A stretch of DNA of 25,764 nucleotides, taken from positions 1 through 25,764 of the IMG/VR virus record IMGVR_UViG_3300035228_000350. One strand, 5' to 3'. How positions within the stretch are numbered: the stretch's first letter is position 1; every line of letters begins with the position of its first letter. The position numbers and the translations under genes were made by a program. The notes beneath the pieces were generated by a model that saw only the letters and a program-made list of their open reading frames with translations, did no database searches and was not told where the DNA came from. Below, one piece after another: positions 2,443 through 18,998 of the stretch. The DNA is from a virus.

Positions 2443-2937
2443 TTATTTTTTCCAGTTAAATGCTCGGTACTTTGGATATTTCATACCATTCCTGTCTATG
2501 AACTGTTCTGTAGGAAGTTTAGAAATTTCCCCCCAGTCTTCATTTTTAGGAACTTTTAGTAAACTACCCACACCAGAGTACAGGTATTTGTGTAGTGTAT
2601 TTTTAGGCACTGCAGCCCCGCCGCCACTATTTAGTAAGCTAATTGCAACAGAATCACGATAAGATGGATTTACATAGTGTAAATTGCATCCTAGAAACCC
2701 ATCTCTATAGAATTTCAGTGCCACCGCTAGTGGTTGAGTGTCCCAAAATTGATATCTTTCTGGGAAAGATGGACTGTATGAAAAGAAAAATAAATCTCCC
2801 TCGATTATTCCATTAGTATCACTTGTACTTATGTCTGGGTTTTGGATTTGAGATAGAGACTGTGTAAGAGCATTTATATACCATGCCCCACTTCTATTCT
2901 TCTTACCAGCTTGTTGTTTAATATCTTCTACGATCAT
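2443..2937 (-). CDS. Conserved-looking T4-like phage protein of unknown function
   Basis: This 164-aa protein is not one I can name. It is soluble, with no signal or membrane segment. It has aromatic-rich blocks: IIEGDLFFFSYSPSFPERYQFWD (about residues 44-66, split here as IIEGDLFFFSYS and PSFPERYQFWD), then NLHYVNPSYRDSVAISLL (about 85-102) and LPTEQFIDRNG...YPKYRAFNWKK at the end. The pattern of FFxYxP, PL..AL.F.DG..G.NLHYV reads like a small beta-barrel or SH3-like fold, but this is only an impression. The start codon at 2937 overlaps the end of gp4 by 20 nt, and the stop is 1 nt before gp48, so it is tightly embedded in a head-completion and tail-cap operon. A role in head-tail completion or as a virion component would fit the context and is inference only. 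Confidence 0.75.
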   Translation of the reverse strand: MIVEDIKQQAGKKNRSGAWYINALTQSLSQIQNPDISTSDTNGIIEGDLFFFSYSPSFPERYQFWDTQPLAVALKFYRDGFLGCNLHYVNPSYRDSVAISLLNSGGGAAVPKNTLHKYLYSGVGSLLKVPKNEDWGEISKLPTEQFIDRNGMKYPKYRAFNWKK

Positions 2938-3376
2938 GAGATATTCCTAAATCGTCTTCGGTCATGATCTTGAACTCATACTTTCTATCAGCACAGTATT
3001 CTTCTGCTGCTTCCCACTTTGCTTGATTAATAACCCATGCTTGAACGTCATGTGCCCACGACTTAGTTCTCCTTTTTGGATTCTTTGGAGGAGACTTGCA
3101 TTGTTTTTTGGGTTTCACTTCTATCACAACAGATCGTTTCTTTCCATCGGAGTCAGTGTATTTTATGAAAAAGTCAGGAAAGTATCTGTGCATCTTTCTA
3201 TCTAAAGGATTCTTGTATGGTATCCAAAATTCCTCTGATTGCCATTGACTTATATTCTCGGTCAGATCACAGTATTCCATGAACTTTCTCTCCCATAGAG
3301 AGCGATAAATGATCTGAGTGGGATCACCTTTATACTTTTTAATATGTTTTGGTTTAAATTTTCCCTTATAAGCCAT
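2918..3376 (-). CDS. 4: Head completion protein gp4 (PD-(D/E)XK nuclease-like)
   Basis: From ATG 3376 this is 152 aa, close to T4 gp4 (150 aa). The N-terminus MAYKGKFKP...KKYKGDPT, then YRSLWERKFMEYCD, is the family signature, and I recall homologues starting at the MAYKGKF methionine. An upstream ATG at 3397 would add seven residues (MTYHTMY), but it lies only 5 nt from a late-promoter-like element and would be nearly leaderless, so 3376 is preferred. A PD-(D/E)XK nuclease pattern is visible: P67-D68 (FPDFF), then I85-E86-V87-K88 in a predicted strand, with E29 upstream in SLWER. In T4 gp4 (also gp50/65) acts late in head maturation, before tail joining, probably trimming or protecting the packaged DNA end. 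It is the first gene of the minus-strand operon. Identification is strong; nuclease activity is inferred from the motif. Confidence 0.86.
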   Translation of the reverse strand: MAYKGKFKPKHIKKYKGDPTQIIYRSLWERKFMEYCDLTENISQWQSEEFWIPYKNPLDRKMHRYFPDFFIKYTDSDGKKRSVVIEVKPKKQCKSPPKNPKRRTKSWAHDVQAWVINQAKWEAAEEYCADRKYEFKIMTEDDLGISHDRRRY

Positions 3377-3402
3377 ATACATAGTATGGTAAGTCATAAC
3401 CT

Positions 3403-10503: not shown

Positions 10504-10509
10504 TGATTG

Positions 10510-13500
10510 ATGTTAGAAAGCGCCCTTGCACAGACCAACTTTGTTGGAAGAGATGGATTCATATGGTGGATTGGTAGAGTAGCCGATCCAGAACATTGGC
10601 GCGATCAATCTACTGATGTTAAATCTGGTTGGGCGTTTAGATGTAAAGTAAGAATAATAGGTTATCACCCATTTGACGAATCCATAATGGGTGAAAAAGA
10701 TTTACCTTGGGCACATGTCATGGTAGATCCTACCTCTGGTGCTGGACAGGCCTGTTTGGGAGAAAAGTCAAAGATGGTTGGTGGAGAAACTGTTTTTGGT
10801 TTCTTCTTGGATGGCGAGGAAGCACAACAACCAGTAATTTTTGGTGCTTTAGCTAGATCAATCAACGACAAATCAGGTCCTTCAAACTTTCTTAGAGATG
10901 GTGCTGAATCTGAAGCTAATGCTTTCGCTGTGGCAACTGGTAGGAAGGCTGGTATCGATGGGATGACCACTCTTCCCAATTCCGAAAACAAAGAATTAAA
11001 TCCAGCTGCTGTAGCAGAAGGAAAGAATCAATTACAAGAAAATGCAAAAAATAAAGCTGGTGAGGAAAAGAAAAACTCACCTGGCGAATTGGAAAGTGGA
11101 AAGGAGGGGATATCTAATGATAGAAAGTCAGAGGTAGAATTTTCTAATACCCAACTAGGTCCTCATAGTATGGACAATGGGTGTGAACAGGGTCCTTTAG
11201 GTGATATTGCACATACGATTGGTAGTTTTCTAACTACAGTAAACTCTCTTACTGCCTATGCTGGTGCTTACATTGACACTGCTCAAAATCTGCTTGCAGA
11301 TGTTAATAAGTTAGTTAGAAAGGCTTCTAAGTTAATATCTGCTGCGGTTAAAAAGATACTCAATGTTATTAGAGATAAAGTTATTGGGTTGATAACGAAG
11401 GTATTCCGAAATGTACAAGCACTAATTATACCAGAACCACAAAAATCTCCTATCCTCAAAGCCCTACAGAAAATTCTTGATATTTTATTCTGTATCTTTG
11501 GAGATCAACTTCCAGGCCTATTTGATCTAGTGACTGGTCTTTTGAAAGACATGATTGGTAAGGTATTAAATCCATCTGTCTGTGCTGTAGAGCAGATGGT
11601 CGGAAATATTTTGGGAGAGATCTACGATAAACTAACAAAAGCATTAAAACCAATACTAGACGGATTAGATTGGTTGACTGGCGCTTTAGGTAGTGTTGGT
11701 AGTTTGTTATCAAAGGTCAGTAGTTATGTTAATATGCTCTTAGGATTCTTTGCTTGTGCTAAATTATCCTGTAAAGAATATGATGATTGGTCTCAGGGTT
11801 TAGGAATCACATCTAAACCAGACTTATCATTTGGAAAAGTTCTTGACAACATGAAAATATTGGAACAATATGATAATTTTGTTGGAGCGGCAGATACTAC
11901 TGGTGATGGAGTTTATGATGCAAGAGCTAAATTCTCACTTCTCAGTATGCTAGGTGGAGGTTTACCAGACTTCTTTGATTGTAATGCTAGGGTACAGAAC
12001 CCACAAACACAAGATGATCTTGGTAATTCAGTACCGCCAGGATTTACATGGAGTGAATGTATCCCACCGAAGATAGAAGTTAGGGGAGATGGAACAAAAA
12101 CTGCTGTTCTTATGCCTATAGTCTCATCTGTAAATGGAAGTATTCTTACTTTAGAGATCTTGGAACCAGGCTTAAATTATACTGGAACTCCAAGAATTGC
12201 AATTATAGACAAGACTAGACATGGCGGCGGTGCTCACGCTGAAGCAATCATAGATGAAAATGGATCTATTGTTGACATCTTTATGTTGGCGCCTGGAGAG
12301 GGATATTGTCCTTCAACTAATGTAGTTCCTCCAAAGTATCCTGTTACTGAAGACGATGATGATGAAAATCCCTTCATTACATTTACTACACCCGCTGATG
12401 ATGCAGTAGGTGTTCAAACTTCTACTTCTCTTTCAATTACATTTAATGAACCAATAGTAAAAGGTAATGGAGATGTTACCATTACAGAATCGGGCACTAA
12501 TGTTGTGCATGAAAGAATCAATGTGAAGAATAATAAAATATCATTCCTATCCGATAGGATTATTAAGATAGATCCAAAGAATGACCTAAAATTTAACACA
12601 GAATACTATATTTCTATGTCTGAGGGTTCATTCTTAGATCTATATGAAAATCAGTTTGCTGGTATGGGAAGAACTGATACCTATAATTTTACAACCAGAG
12701 GTGTTTCTGGTATTGGTAGTGAGGCAGTTGGTATTGTAACGGATCTTGTTCCTTACAGGCCTGGAATTGGATATACTTCTGGAGATAAAGGTAGAGTGGG
12801 AGATTGTTCTTTCGATTTAATTGTTACTCCAGCAGGTTCTATCGCTGGAATCAATAACATCAATTGTCAAGATAAACATAAATCTATTCCTTCAGTATCG
12901 ATAGATACTAGAACAGGAATTGGTGCCAGATTGTATCCAATCATGTCATATAGTCCTGACTATGTTTCTGATATTGGAGAGAAACCAAGTAGAGATGGTG
13001 GTATTATTGGTAGAGGTGGAATTGTATCAACTGATGAGGCAAGAAGAGGTGGAACTCTGTTTGTTAAGGTAGTTGATTGTGTCTACAGTCAACGTACAAC
13101 ACAGGTTGGCTGGGTCAATGGTAACCCATATTATGGCGACTTCCATGTTCATCCATCAACAGGTAAGAAGATGGTAGGACCTACTCATGTATCCTCACCA
13201 CATGCCACAATATATAATACTAAGAATGAAAGTCTTGGCCAACAACCAGTTATAATCTACACCCCTCAATCGAGCACCACTACTACAACCACTACCACTC
13301 CAACTGTAAGTACAACTAACACAACTACTACAACGGAACAGACAAATGCCTCTGCCGACACTACTGATAGTTCTACACCATCTATTAATACAAATACCCC
13401 ACAAGAAACTACGCAGCCTCAAGAACAAACTGGGGGAACTACACCTCCAAGCACTCCTCCACCTAGTAGTCCTCCTTCTGGTGGTGGCGGGTCTGGCGGA

Positions 13501-13536
13501 TCAGGTGGATCAGGCGGTTACGGAGGCGGATACTGA
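10510..13536 (+). CDS. 5: gp5-like baseplate hub/spike protein with OB-fold and Ig-like domain, no visible lysozyme
   Basis: The ATG at 10510 is preferred over the in-frame TTG three bases earlier, giving 1008 aa. Residues 10-116 are the OB-fold start of gp5/VgrG proteins: GFIWWIGRVADPEHW, RCKVRIIGYHP, LPWAHVMVDPTSG, VFGFFLDGEEAQQPVIFGAL. T4 gp5 (575 aa) follows this with a lysozyme; here instead are long amphipathic helices (about 230-430) with no E...D...T lysozyme pattern that I can see. An Ig-like domain of Big_5 type lies at about 620-730 (TTPADDAVGVQTSTSLSITF ... TYNFTT). Residues 878-900 (FHVHPSTGKKMVG, then H893 and H898) form a histidine cluster. The end is a Thr/Ser/Pro-rich linker (about 916-977) and a Gly-rich tail. 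It makes the puncturing hub with gp27 and probably the needle protein encoded next. Confidence 0.8.
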   Translation: MLESALAQTNFVGRDGFIWWIGRVADPEHWRDQSTDVKSGWAFRCKVRIIGYHPFDESIMGEKDLPWAHVMVDPTSGAGQACLGEKSKMVGGETVFGFFLDGEEAQQPVIFGALARSINDKSGPSNFLRDGAESEANAFAVATGRKAGIDGMTTLPNSENKELNPAAVAEGKNQLQENAKNKAGEEKKNSPGELESGKEGISNDRKSEVEFSNTQLGPHSMDNGCEQGPLGDIAHTIGSFLTTVNSLTAYAGAYIDTAQNLLADVNKLVRKASKLISAAVKKILNVIRDKVIGLITKVFRNVQALIIPEPQKSPILKALQKILDILFCIFGDQLPGLFDLVTGLLKDMIGKVLNPSVCAVEQMVGNILGEIYDKLTKALKPILDGLDWLTGALGSVGSLLSKVSSYVNMLLGFFACAKLSCKEYDDWSQGLGITSKPDLSFGKVLDNMKILEQYDNFVGAADTTGDGVYDARAKFSLLSMLGGGLPDFFDCNARVQNPQTQDDLGNSVPPGFTWSECIPPKIEVRGDGTKTAVLMPIVSSVNGSILTLEILEPGLNYTGTPRIAIIDKTRHGGGAHAEAIIDENGSIVDIFMLAPGEGYCPSTNVVPPKYPVTEDDDDENPFITFTTPADDAVGVQTSTSLSITFNEPIVKGNGDVTITESGTNVVHERINVKNNKISFLSDRIIKIDPKNDLKFNTEYYISMSEGSFLDLYENQFAGMGRTDTYNFTTRGVSGIGSEAVGIVTDLVPYRPGIGYTSGDKGRVGDCSFDLIVTPAGSIAGINNINCQDKHKSIPSVSIDTRTGIGARLYPIMSYSPDYVSDIGEKPSRDGGIIGRGGIVSTDEARRGGTLFVKVVDCVYSQRTTQVGWVNGNPYYGDFHVHPSTGKKMVGPTHVSSPHATIYNTKNESLGQQPVIIYTPQSSTTTTTTTTPTVSTTNTTTTTEQTNASADTTDSSTPSINTNTPQETTQPQEQTGGTTPPSTPPPSSPPSGGGGSGGSGGSGGYGGGY

Positions 13537-16596: not shown

Positions 16597-16973
16597 TTCC
16601 TGATCATTTTTACCCATTCTGGACTGTTTATGATAGTATAGGACAGAAGTATTGTGATTGTAGTCACGAACAATATGCCATTACCACTCTGGAATTACAT
16701 GAGGGTGATGGATTTACATATAAACGGATAGAAGCACCCAAACCATTGCCACCTGAGATAATAGATGTCAAATCCACAGGTAGTTACGAGGGTAAATTGC
16801 CAGGGCAACAGGGATTACCTTCCGAAACTTCAATTTACTTTGATAGTATCAAGAAACGATTAGAAGAGAGGGAAAATGATGATATGAGAAATGCAATTAT
16901 AGATGCCGCCGTAAACGGTTATGAAAAAGTATTAGAACAAAGCGATTTACAGAAATTAGATGATTTGCATTAA
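16593..16973 (+). CDS. Small protein of unknown function
   Basis: This 126-aa protein starts by ATGA overlap with the preceding stop. The N-terminal half has aromatic and cysteine residues (HFYPFWTVYD, YCDCSHEQY), a Pro-rich middle (APKPLPPEIID), and a charged, probably helical C-terminus (about 80-126, IKKRLEERENDDMRNAIIDA). No motif is recognised. The tight overlap with structural and oxygenase genes suggests it is expressed in the same late operon. Confidence 0.6.
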   Translation: MIPDHFYPFWTVYDSIGQKYCDCSHEQYAITTLELHEGDGFTYKRIEAPKPLPPEIIDVKSTGSYEGKLPGQQGLPSETSIYFDSIKKRLEERENDDMRNAIIDAAVNGYEKVLEQSDLQKLDDLH

Positions 16974-17497
16974 TGAAACAACTTTTTGGAATACCTGTCT
17001 TTGAAGATCAGGTTGATGTAACTAAATTTGATTGTATTCCCCTCTCTCCCTTAGAACCTACTTGGGATTCTGGAGTTTCATCTACTTTCTCGTCACAGAA
17101 ACAAGAAGAAATTCCACAGGAAATTTGGGTTTATTTGTCTGGTATAATAGAGAGAAATCTCTATCCAGCAGAACTGATGGGAAAGAACGCAAGGTTTGGA
17201 CATATATGGAGAAATGTTTATAAGAAACATGATTATCAAGATGCTCACATACATCCTAAAAGTCAATGGAGTTATGTGATATATGTTGACGTGACATCAA
17301 GAACTGCATTTTTTAATCCTTCGATTCATAACATTCAGAACCATTTTGGTTGCACTTTGCCCCAGTTTCCGTTAGACTATAAACCTATTCTGGAGCCTGG
17401 GAGTATCATCATATTCCCATCATTCCTCATGCACATGGTTAATTCCGGCAATGAGGGAACTACAATATCTGGAAACATTTACATGGAATACTCATGA
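16973..17497 (+). CDS. 2-oxoglutarate/Fe(II) oxygenase-like protein (HxH variant)
   Basis: This 174-aa protein has the layout of the 2OG-FeII_Oxy_5 type found in cyanophages: an aspartate-rich start, then AHIHPKSQWSYVIYVD (about residues 91-106) with H92 and H94, and a later PGSIIIFPSFLMHMVNSG (about 142-159) with H154. H92 or H94 plus H154 would be metal ligands in a double-stranded beta-helix. The usual Arg that binds 2-oxoglutarate is not visible in EGTTISGNIYMEY, where Thr stands at the expected place, so activity is uncertain. Phage members of this class may modify proteins or nucleotides; the substrate is unknown. Start overlaps the preceding stop (TAATG) and it shares 4 nt (ATGA) with the next gene. 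Confidence 0.68.
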   Translation: MKQLFGIPVFEDQVDVTKFDCIPLSPLEPTWDSGVSSTFSSQKQEEIPQEIWVYLSGIIERNLYPAELMGKNARFGHIWRNVYKKHDYQDAHIHPKSQWSYVIYVDVTSRTAFFNPSIHNIQNHFGCTLPQFPLDYKPILEPGSIIIFPSFLMHMVNSGNEGTTISGNIYMEYS

Positions 17498-17796: not shown

Positions 17797-17914
17797 TCAA
17801 GTCTGGGAGTGGGAGGAAACTCCAGAACTCTCTGCATTTATCTCCAAACAAACTGGCAATGAGGTTTTGAAACAGAAACCTACTATGAAAGATGTTGAAG
17901 TATCCGAATCTTAA
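17750..17914 (+). CDS. Short protein with a TTG start, overlapping the coiled-coil gene
   Basis: A TTG at 17750 is preceded by AGAGG at about 7 nt, a good ribosome-site spacing, and gives a 54-aa protein beginning MAKRTLTIQKK and containing QNNQVWEWEETPELSAF (residues about 15-31). The alternative ATG at 17684 would place 22 extra residues inside the upstream coding sequence in another frame and has no good ribosome site. The Trp-Glu-Trp-Glu-Glu motif and the good start context argue that it is real. It overlaps the coiled-coil gene by 47 nt and the next oxygenase gene by 23 nt. Function is unknown. Confidence 0.58.
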   Translation: MAKRTLTIQKKNPQNNQVWEWEETPELSAFISKQTGNEVLKQKPTMKDVEVSES

Positions 17915-18479
17915 AGACCACATATTTGAGTATGATTTGCTATCTGATCAGGAATGTGATCAGATAGTATCTCTTTTAGATTCTCGTGAATGGGGTGAAT
18001 TTTCTTGGTATCAGGACTTTGAACAGGTTGATATTGATAAAGAATCAAATATGAAATCAACCGTAACTGCCCCAGAGGCGGTAAATATAATACAACCACA
18101 TATAAATGATGAGTTGTTTAATGCCTTCCACGAAAAATATAATTATTATGACGTTGAGGATAATCAAACTGGCGGTTCATTTTGGGAAGCTTGCTCAGGC
18201 ATAAAATTCAATAAGTATGATGTTGGCGATTATCTTAGTCCACACTACGATCATATCCGAGATTTCTTTGAAGGACAATTTAGAGGCATACCTGTTACTA
18301 GTGTGGTAGGTGTGTTGAATGACGATTTTGAAGGAGGTGAGTTTAGGTTTTGGAAGGAACACACTGTCAATATAAAGAAGGGAAGTGTGTTAGTATTTCC
18401 AGCACTGTATTTGTTTCCACATGAAGTAATGCCAGTAACAAAAGGAACCAGATATTCTTGGATACAATGGATTGTATAG
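17892..18479 (+). CDS. 2-oxoglutarate/Fe(II)-dependent oxygenase, prolyl-hydroxylase type
   Basis: This 195-aa protein has a complete set of 2OG-Fe(II) oxygenase residues: H118-x-D120 (LSPHYDH), distal H177 (LYLFPHEVMPV) and R187 (KGTRYSW) for 2-oxoglutarate binding. The strands between (VTSVVGVLNDDFEGGEFRFW, then IKKGSVLVFPA) match the 2OG-FeII_Oxy_3 or PKHD-type domain with a typical N-terminal helix (LLSDQECDQIVSLLD). Such enzymes hydroxylate proline or other residues; those carried by cyanophages have unknown targets. It ends 20 nt before the tmRNA acceptor piece. The ATG at 17892 lies in the end of the 54-aa gene with a weak ribosome site, so coupled translation is likely. An 11-bp inverted repeat lies near its start. 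Confidence 0.84.
   Translation: MLKYPNLKDHIFEYDLLSDQECDQIVSLLDSREWGEFSWYQDFEQVDIDKESNMKSTVTAPEAVNIIQPHINDELFNAFHEKYNYYDVEDNQTGGSFWEACSGIKFNKYDVGDYLSPHYDHIRDFFEGQFRGIPVTSVVGVLNDDFEGGEFRFWKEHTVNIKKGSVLVFPALYLFPHEVMPVTKGTRYSWIQWIV
17940..17967 (+). repeat. Perfect 11-bp inverted repeat near the start of the oxygenase gene
   Basis: CTATCTGATCA (17940-17950) pairs with TGATCAGATAG (17957-17967) around a 6-nt loop. The stem is 46 nt after the ATG and is followed by TATCTCTTTTAG, so it could act as a weak terminator or attenuator, or fold in the mRNA to slow translation. It is also compatible with coding constraint on an acidic DQECDQ segment. Confidence 0.55.
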
Positions 18480-18499
18480 TCCTGATGTATGACTCAAAA

Positions 18500-18557
18500 A
18501 GACATGTAGGTGGTGTAATCGACATTCTGGACAGGGGTTCGATTCCCCTCATCTCCA
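18500..18557 (+). ncRNA. tmRNA acceptor piece
   Basis: This piece carries one strand of helix 2, the segment GACATTCTGGAC, a complete 5-bp T arm with a TTCGATT loop, and the 3' acceptor strand ending in A18557. No CCA is encoded after it (the next bases are TTCAA), so CCA would be added by the host tRNA nucleotidyltransferase. The 5' end is not defined in the sequence. Confidence 0.82.
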
Positions 18558-18653
18558 TTCAAGGGGATGCCATGGTCTCGACAGGGTATACGGAACATGA
18601 CTGAAAACCTGCTCGGAGAGCAAACCATAGATGCAAAAACATCTGACACTGCT

Positions 18654-18728
18654 GCGAATAACATCGTAGCGTTCTCTCGTATTCTTACAAGAGAATTTGC
18701 CCGCACTGACGAACTCGTCGCTGCTTAA
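18654..18728 (+). other. tmRNA tag reading frame with P5-like hairpin
   Basis: Reading from GCG at 18654 gives ANNIVAFSR, then ILTREFARTDELVAA, then TAA: 24 codons. The ANNIV.FSR start is the cyanobacterial tag pattern and the VAA end suits ClpXP-type recognition. Known cyanobacterial tags that I recall are about 16 residues, so this one is long. Two hairpins overlap the frame: TTCTCT with AGAGAA (18672-18677 and 18690-18695) and TTGCCC with GGGCAA (18697-18702 and 18730-18735), the second like helix 5, which in tmRNAs holds the stop codon. The resume codon could also be GCT at 18651. Confidence 0.78.
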
Positions 18729-18772
18729 GGGGCAATCGGGGATTAGTCACTCCTTGTTAACCAAGTGACTGT

Positions 18773-18787
18773 GGGGGCTCTGCCCCC
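18773..18787 (+). other. Strong GC hairpin closing the tmRNA coding piece
   Basis: GGGGGC pairs with GCCCCC around a 3-nt TCT loop. Just upstream, AGTCACT (18745-18751) pairs with AGTGACT (18764-18770). The run after the hairpin is TCCTATATAAATT, not a U-tract, so it may mark the RNA 3' end or take part in a pseudoknot rather than terminate by itself. Confidence 0.55.
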
Positions 18788-18792
18788 TCCTA

Positions 18793-18800
18793 TATAAATT
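18793..18800 (+). promoter_or_regulatory. Possible late-promoter-like element TATAAATT
   Basis: TATAAATT differs from the T4 late-promoter box TATAAATA at one position and lies 9 nt before the ATG at 18810. The AT-rich context makes chance occurrence likely; the short distance would leave almost no leader. Confidence 0.25.
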
Positions 18801-18809
18801 AAAACACTC

Positions 18810-18998
18810 ATGAGATTACAATTCTGGTATTCAAAAAATATTGAACAGTGGCATTGGACACTCCACACCAGACATTATGCTCCGAAAGGAACAGATTACT
18901 ATTATACCTCTGGATCAGGAACTGATGTAAGAGAGGTAATGGGTAAGGTTGCCTCAGAAGTTGAACATTTAGTGGAAGAAAAGAACAAAGATGTTTGA
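18810..18998 (+). CDS. Small protein of unknown function after tmRNA
   Basis: This 62-aa protein is rich in aromatic residues at the N-terminus (FWYSKNIEQWHWTLHTRHY, residues about 5-23) and helical and acidic at the end (VMGKVASEVEHLVEEKNKDV). This W.H.TL...HY type of start looks conserved rather than random, but I cannot name it. It follows the tmRNA locus by about 20 nt and overlaps the next gene by 8 nt. Confidence 0.62.
   Translation: MRLQFWYSKNIEQWHWTLHTRHYAPKGTDYYYTSGSGTDVREVMGKVASEVEHLVEEKNKDV

Follow-up and report, generated by a model that had tools for sequence, protein, structure and literature searches.

The locus and its virus

The window, which is the whole stretch of DNA analysed here, is a 25,764-base virus record in which PHROGs and Pfam assign genes for a tail tube, a baseplate, a gp5-like hub and 2OG-Fe(II) oxygenases. 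ARAGORN places a permuted tmRNA at positions 18468–18819 on the plus strand, the sole RNA gene of its kinds across the window. The Rfam model cyano_tmRNA (RF01851) matches 18485–18787 on the same strand with 109 bits (E 5.6e-29) against a gathering threshold of 70, and tmRNA_permuted (RF04321), likewise above its gathering threshold, matches 18509–18728 with 85.8 bits (E 2e-15); the gathering scan of the window returned these two models and no other. The tmRNA stretch aligns over its full length, at 95–96% identity, with Synechococcus phages S-SSM6a and S-SSM7 (Kyanoviridae, Lipsvirus), and to judge from the sequence the source virus is a Lipsvirus-like, T4-like cyanophage.

Directly 5′ of the tmRNA lie two neighbouring ORFs (16973–17497 and 17892–18479, plus strand) that Pfam assigns to the 2OG-Fe(II) oxygenase family. 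Elsewhere in the window, an ORF amid the tail tube and baseplate genes (2918–3397, minus strand) carries a TnsA-like endonuclease N-terminal domain (Pfam PF08722, E 1.1e-24), and the gp5-like hub ORF (10507–13536, plus strand; 1009 aa) contains a bacterial Ig-like domain (Big_5) at residues 618–730.

The tmRNA of S-SSM7 and S-SSM6a, about 95% identical to that of the window, shares its locus, tag length and neighbours: a 588-base gene before it, annotated as hypothetical and having the length and position of the window's oxygenase ORF, and a fibre gene after it. The tags differ, reading AKSSDT...VTA in the two isolates and AKTSDT...VAA in the window. Both isolate records list the tmRNA as a hypothetical protein; the CDS annotations (L002 6031–6249 in S-SSM7, L003 3088–3249 in S-SSM6a) overlie the tmRNA, read into the tag and look mis-annotated. 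More distant copies are found in Sf-FS3, S-CAM1, S-CAM3 and AG-345-P14, several of them adjoining tRNA genes, and the tmRNA is kept across several cyanophage genera, often within tRNA clusters.

Anatomy of the two-piece tmRNA

The first-pass annotation had proposed a phage-borne permuted tmRNA at 18500–18788, a claim to be given up if no covariance model matched. Both the cyano_tmRNA model and the tmRNA finder detect it, and together with tmRNA_permuted and the covariation described below they confirm that 18485–18787 (plus strand) is a phage-borne, circularly permuted (two-piece) tmRNA of the cyanobacterial type. Its parts, all on the plus strand, are as follows.

18485–18557, plus: acceptor (3′ tRNA-like) piece with leader (ARAGORN, Rfam cyano_tmRNA, sequence); 5′ boundary tentative
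18509–18529, plus: helix 2, 5′ strand, pairing with 18582–18602 (Rfam; 96–99% of alignment cells paired, two-sided changes)
18533–18549, plus: T arm of 5 bp (18533–18537/18545–18549) with a TTCGATT loop (100% paired, two pairs covary)
18550–18556, plus: acceptor stem, 3′ strand CATCTCC, pairing with GGGGATG at 18563–18569 (7 bp, 100% paired)
18558–18562, plus: joining segment TTCAA (ARAGORN, sequence)
18563–18787, plus: coding piece (5′ tRNA-like and mRNA-like), from G18563 through the terminal hairpin (ARAGORN, Rfam)
18582–18602, plus: helix 2, 3′ strand (Rfam, covariation)
18633–18728, plus: tag reading frame with GCA resume codon, 31 aa AKTSDTAANNIVAFSRILTREFARTDELVAA and TAA stop (ARAGORN, A at -4, codon-position test)
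18633–18653, plus: N-terminal tag extension, codons 1–7, AKTSDTA; probably arose by duplication of the resume region GCNAAYAACATCG and then diverged
18654–18680, plus: tag core ANNIVAFSR, common to host-type tags and under purifying selection (codon-position test)
18681–18725, plus: phage-specific C-terminal part of the tag, ILTREFARTDELVAA, replacing host Q[AT]APVAA
18773–18787, plus: terminal hairpin GGGGGC-TCT-GCCCCC, 3′ end of the coding piece (Rfam; 77% paired, in a gappy part of the alignment)

The architecture described in the first-pass annotation holds in detail. ARAGORN, Rfam and the pairing across the break all place the acceptor piece 5′ of the coding piece, the sequence and a 35-sequence alignment support the three helices that close across the break (acceptor of 7 bp, T arm of 5 bp, helix 2 in blocks), and the piece boundaries A18557 and G18563, with the 5-nt join between them, are found in the sequence. 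The helix 2 blocks contain one C-A mismatch. The discriminator A18557 is the predicted mature 3′ end, and CCA is absent from the DNA. U18554-G18565 corresponds to the G3-U70 alanine identity pair, which is G-U in 35/35 sequences; together with the equally invariant A73, it predicts alanine identity.

In the Rfam alignment, the window lacks most positions of the leader hairpin that precedes the acceptor piece. This leaves the 5′ boundary of that piece uncertain, which counts against a functional tmRNA; we treat this hairpin of the Rfam model as a variable feature rather than a defining one. The tmRNA_permuted model omits protruding terminal regions, and permuted forms have been described (PMC11915505).

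The covariation alignment comprises 35 distinct sequences, 29 from phages and six from hosts. The named pairs are formed in 94.4% of cells, compared with 82.5% in shuffles and 48–54% when the partners are slid, and two-sided changes occur in 19/34 pairs. The covariation score is 0.416, against 0.188 for shuffles and about 0.1 for slid partners, and the acceptor and T arm are paired in 100% of cells. The tRNA-like helices covary strongly, far above the shuffled and slid controls. The predicted single-sequence fold is the expected one, and its energy is no better than that of shuffled sequences (z 0.62); folding energy being uninformative here, it is the covariance evidence that counts.

Joining segments of phages and hosts

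Loci for comparison came from two viral-collection scans, one genome scan and phage records, all being permuted tmRNAs called by ARAGORN. They comprise 69 phage loci, a number in which both the window and its locus L001 are counted, and, with L001 left out, 43 of the cyano-type. The hosts are the 118 picocyanobacterial genomes among the matches listed, picked by a DNA pattern permitting a join of 3–33 nt, and thus form a sample and not a census. The join measures 4–7 nt in the 43 cyano-type phage loci and 5–33 nt (median 12; four with 5 nt) in these 118 host genomes. The 5-nt join, considered as an unusual trait, lies inside the host range and is typical of phages.

Start codon and selection on the tag

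A resume codon with A at -4, an open tag frame and a stop codon are all present in the window. The first GCN codon is preceded by A at -4 in 43/43 cyano-type phage loci (A18629 in the window), and A at this position is essential in E. coli tmRNA (PMC2481249), which suggests that translation would resume at GCA18633. The internal alanine codons of the window tag have C or T at -4; resumption at one of them, the alanine of ANNIV, where the -4 base is T and not A, was considered and rejected. An internal alanine codon likewise has A at -4 in L015 and L018, so that the start is less certain in those two.

A codon test on minimum spanning trees of the distinct sequences counted 14 synonymous changes and one non-synonymous change in the core ANNIVAFSR, where the null mean is 4.2 synonymous changes and 0/5000 simulations scored as high. 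When extension and core are taken together, the synonymous bias appears in frame 0 (P 0.0006) and is absent in +1 and +2. Hosts among the matches listed gave 42 synonymous and 19 non-synonymous changes. The core is evidently under strong purifying selection, which makes its translation most likely. The extension, with nine synonymous and 21 non-synonymous changes (P 0.54), behaves as expected without constraint; the codon test thus sees no peptide-level constraint on it, and this counts against the functional reading.

The phage tag differs from the host tag

The host tag is ANNIVRFSRQAAPVAA with close variants, 16 aa long, in the 118 genomes among the matches listed. For 12/118 of these ARAGORN reports tags of 18 aa (starting VTANNIV or VTANKIV) and for 1/118 a tag of 21 aa; we take these 13 longer tags to be misplaced starts. 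All 118 end in VAA. In the phages, seven codons are inserted before ANNIV in 32/43 cyano-type loci (L001 left out) and six before ANNIV or ANKIV in L015, L027 and L034, while 8/43 (L021, L028, L029, L170, L184, L185, L193 and L198) have no insertion. The extension resembles the resume region: in L171 GCTAAAGACATCG aligns with GCGAACAACATCG, and 3/5000 shuffles score as high, compared with 8/5000 for the corresponding comparison in the window. As far as its sequence tells, the N-terminal extension probably arose when the resume region was duplicated.

The phage C-terminus is unlike that of the host in nearly all loci, and 23/43 end in TA, VA or AV, not AA. Among the extended tags, only those of L015, L027 and L034 retain Q[AS]APVAA. 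The window tag, 31 aa long, retains a terminal VAA, and the S-CAM1 type tags share this ending.

Origin, expression and host factors

A maximum-likelihood tree was built from the RNA after removal of join and tag, and in it a branch supported at 100/100 has all the phages on the same side. The tree holds 30 phage and 40 host rows, one of them long; its hosts are picocyanobacteria only, it is read without a root and its bootstrap is rough. It separates the phage RNAs from those of the sampled hosts, as far as these sequences go, and does not date an acquisition.

No sigma-70-like promoter was found near the tmRNA on the plus strand, which counts against a functional gene. As for a T4-type late promoter, TATAAATA is absent and TATAAAT is no commoner in the window than by chance. 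One TATAAAT lies at 18793–18799 (plus strand), between the terminal hairpin and the ORF at 18810–18998. A search of 11 phage records, some of them fragments, detected no SmpB gene, and the phage isolate records searched contain neither ClpS nor ClpP. With none of the three in the isolate genomes, host factors would be needed.

Proposed function and competing readings

Very probably, the locus encodes a functional two-piece tmRNA of cyanobacterial type, belonging to a T4-like cyanophage and acting in trans-translation with host SmpB. The permuted anatomy, the covarying tRNA-like domain, the A at -4 and the constrained tag core are the features on which this reading is built. We infer transcription, processing, charging and the use of host SmpB as follows. 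A single precursor would be transcribed and then cut at the 5-nt join, presumably by host tRNA-processing enzymes; CCA would be added to A18557 and the RNA charged with alanine via the G3-U70 pair. Together with host SmpB, the tmRNA would enter those ribosomes of the infected cell that had stalled on mRNA broken or lacking a stop codon. Alanine would be added, translation would resume at GCA18633, and the 31-residue tag would be appended and the ribosome released. The functions suggested in the first-pass annotation, namely retagging and sustained translation, are plausible and would fit the constrained tag core. Delivery of proteins to host ClpXP by the phage tag is suggested less strongly, because the C-terminus of this tag differs from that of the host tag.

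That difference raises the possibility, which we hold as tentative, that the phage RNA competes with host tmRNA and that the altered tag ends change how host proteases recognise the tagged products, which would be spared or redirected. Such an altered fate is compatible with a functional trans-translation RNA and would give it a purpose. The contrast between the uniform VAA of the hosts among the matches listed and the TA, VA or AV endings of 23/43 phage loci points this way, as does the separate clustering of phage and host RNAs; yet the window tag and the S-CAM1 type tags still end in VAA, and the changed C-termini could reflect drift in a weakly constrained tail. A distinct cyanophage tmRNA lineage, with a tag rewritten by a duplicated resume region and a new C-terminus that gives rescued proteins another fate, is conceivable, if doubtful.

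SmpB could be titrated by a complete tRNA-like domain without further parts, and the RNA of mycobacteriophage DS6A, which is confined to the tRNA domain, has been proposed to act as an inhibitory decoy (PMC4131195, PMC11915505); by analogy, the phage RNA might be charged or bind SmpB and so inhibit host tmRNA. For a decoy a tag would be superfluous, whereas here the core is conserved as a peptide, in frame 0 alone, and the resume context has been retained; we consider this role improbable. tmRNA genes are common phage integration sites (PMC11590407), so that the locus might be what is left of a host gene, no longer functional, or a copy of an integration site brought along by recombination; the covariation among phages, the constrained tag core, the long supported branch that parts phages from sampled hosts and the lack of an integrase among the window ORFs searched make such an origin very unlikely. 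Least probable, to a degree that we give it hardly any weight, is that the locus encodes a small protein, the reading adopted in the annotations of S-SSM7 (SSSM7_025) and S-SSM6a (CYVG_00208). An ATG frame at 18567–18728 is open in the window, but the S-SSM7 frame is stopped at codon 3 there, which leaves the hypothetical-protein annotation unsupported, and the DNA fits tmRNA models with covarying helices. The annotation in these published cyanophage genomes is thereby corrected. For the functional tmRNA that we favour, a selected core between two changed ends poses a testable question: does the RNA serve ribosome recycling alone, or also the choice of proteolysis targets?

Relation to known tmRNAs

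The picocyanobacterial permuted tmRNA (RF01851/RF04321) agrees with the window RNA in the order of the pieces and in its acceptor, T arm, helix 2, G3-U70 pair, ANNIV core and 3′ hairpin. The window RNA differs from it in a join shorter than that of most hosts, in a mostly missing leader hairpin, in clustering apart from the sampled hosts, and in a tag of 31 aa, rather than 16 aa, with an N-terminal extension and another C-terminus. Phage-borne permuted ssrA also occurs in other marine myophages, namely methylophage Melnitz and pelagimyophages (PMC9004378); that of Melnitz is of the alphaproteobacterial type with a glutamine riboswitch, whereas the window scan gave only the two tmRNA models. 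Mycobacteriophages of the Bxz1 group and DS6A (PMC4131195) likewise encode tmRNA but belong to other host groups, and the DS6A RNA holds little beyond the tRNA-like domain and no tag.

In a published survey, 402 of 18,146 phage genomes carry a tmRNA and 53 are suggested to be two-piece, 50 of them marine or aquatic, with AG-345-P14 among those named (PMC9004378). The novelty implied in the first-pass annotation, which had stressed a phage-borne permuted tmRNA with a 5-nt join, does not stand, since phage two-piece tmRNAs are already published and the short join is ordinary. What appears to be new, in that we did not find it described, is the lengthened phage tag with its altered ending. Our literature search found no paper on cyanophage tags or comparing phage with host tags; tmRNA Website entries lay outside this search, and priority for the tag observation is therefore not established.

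Permuted tmRNAs with other types of tag, ANDAFYGEMRLAA and ANDEKFALAA among them, are present in L157, L163, L164, L166, L169, L182, L187, L201 and other non-cyano viral contigs, where the joins reach about 33 nt.
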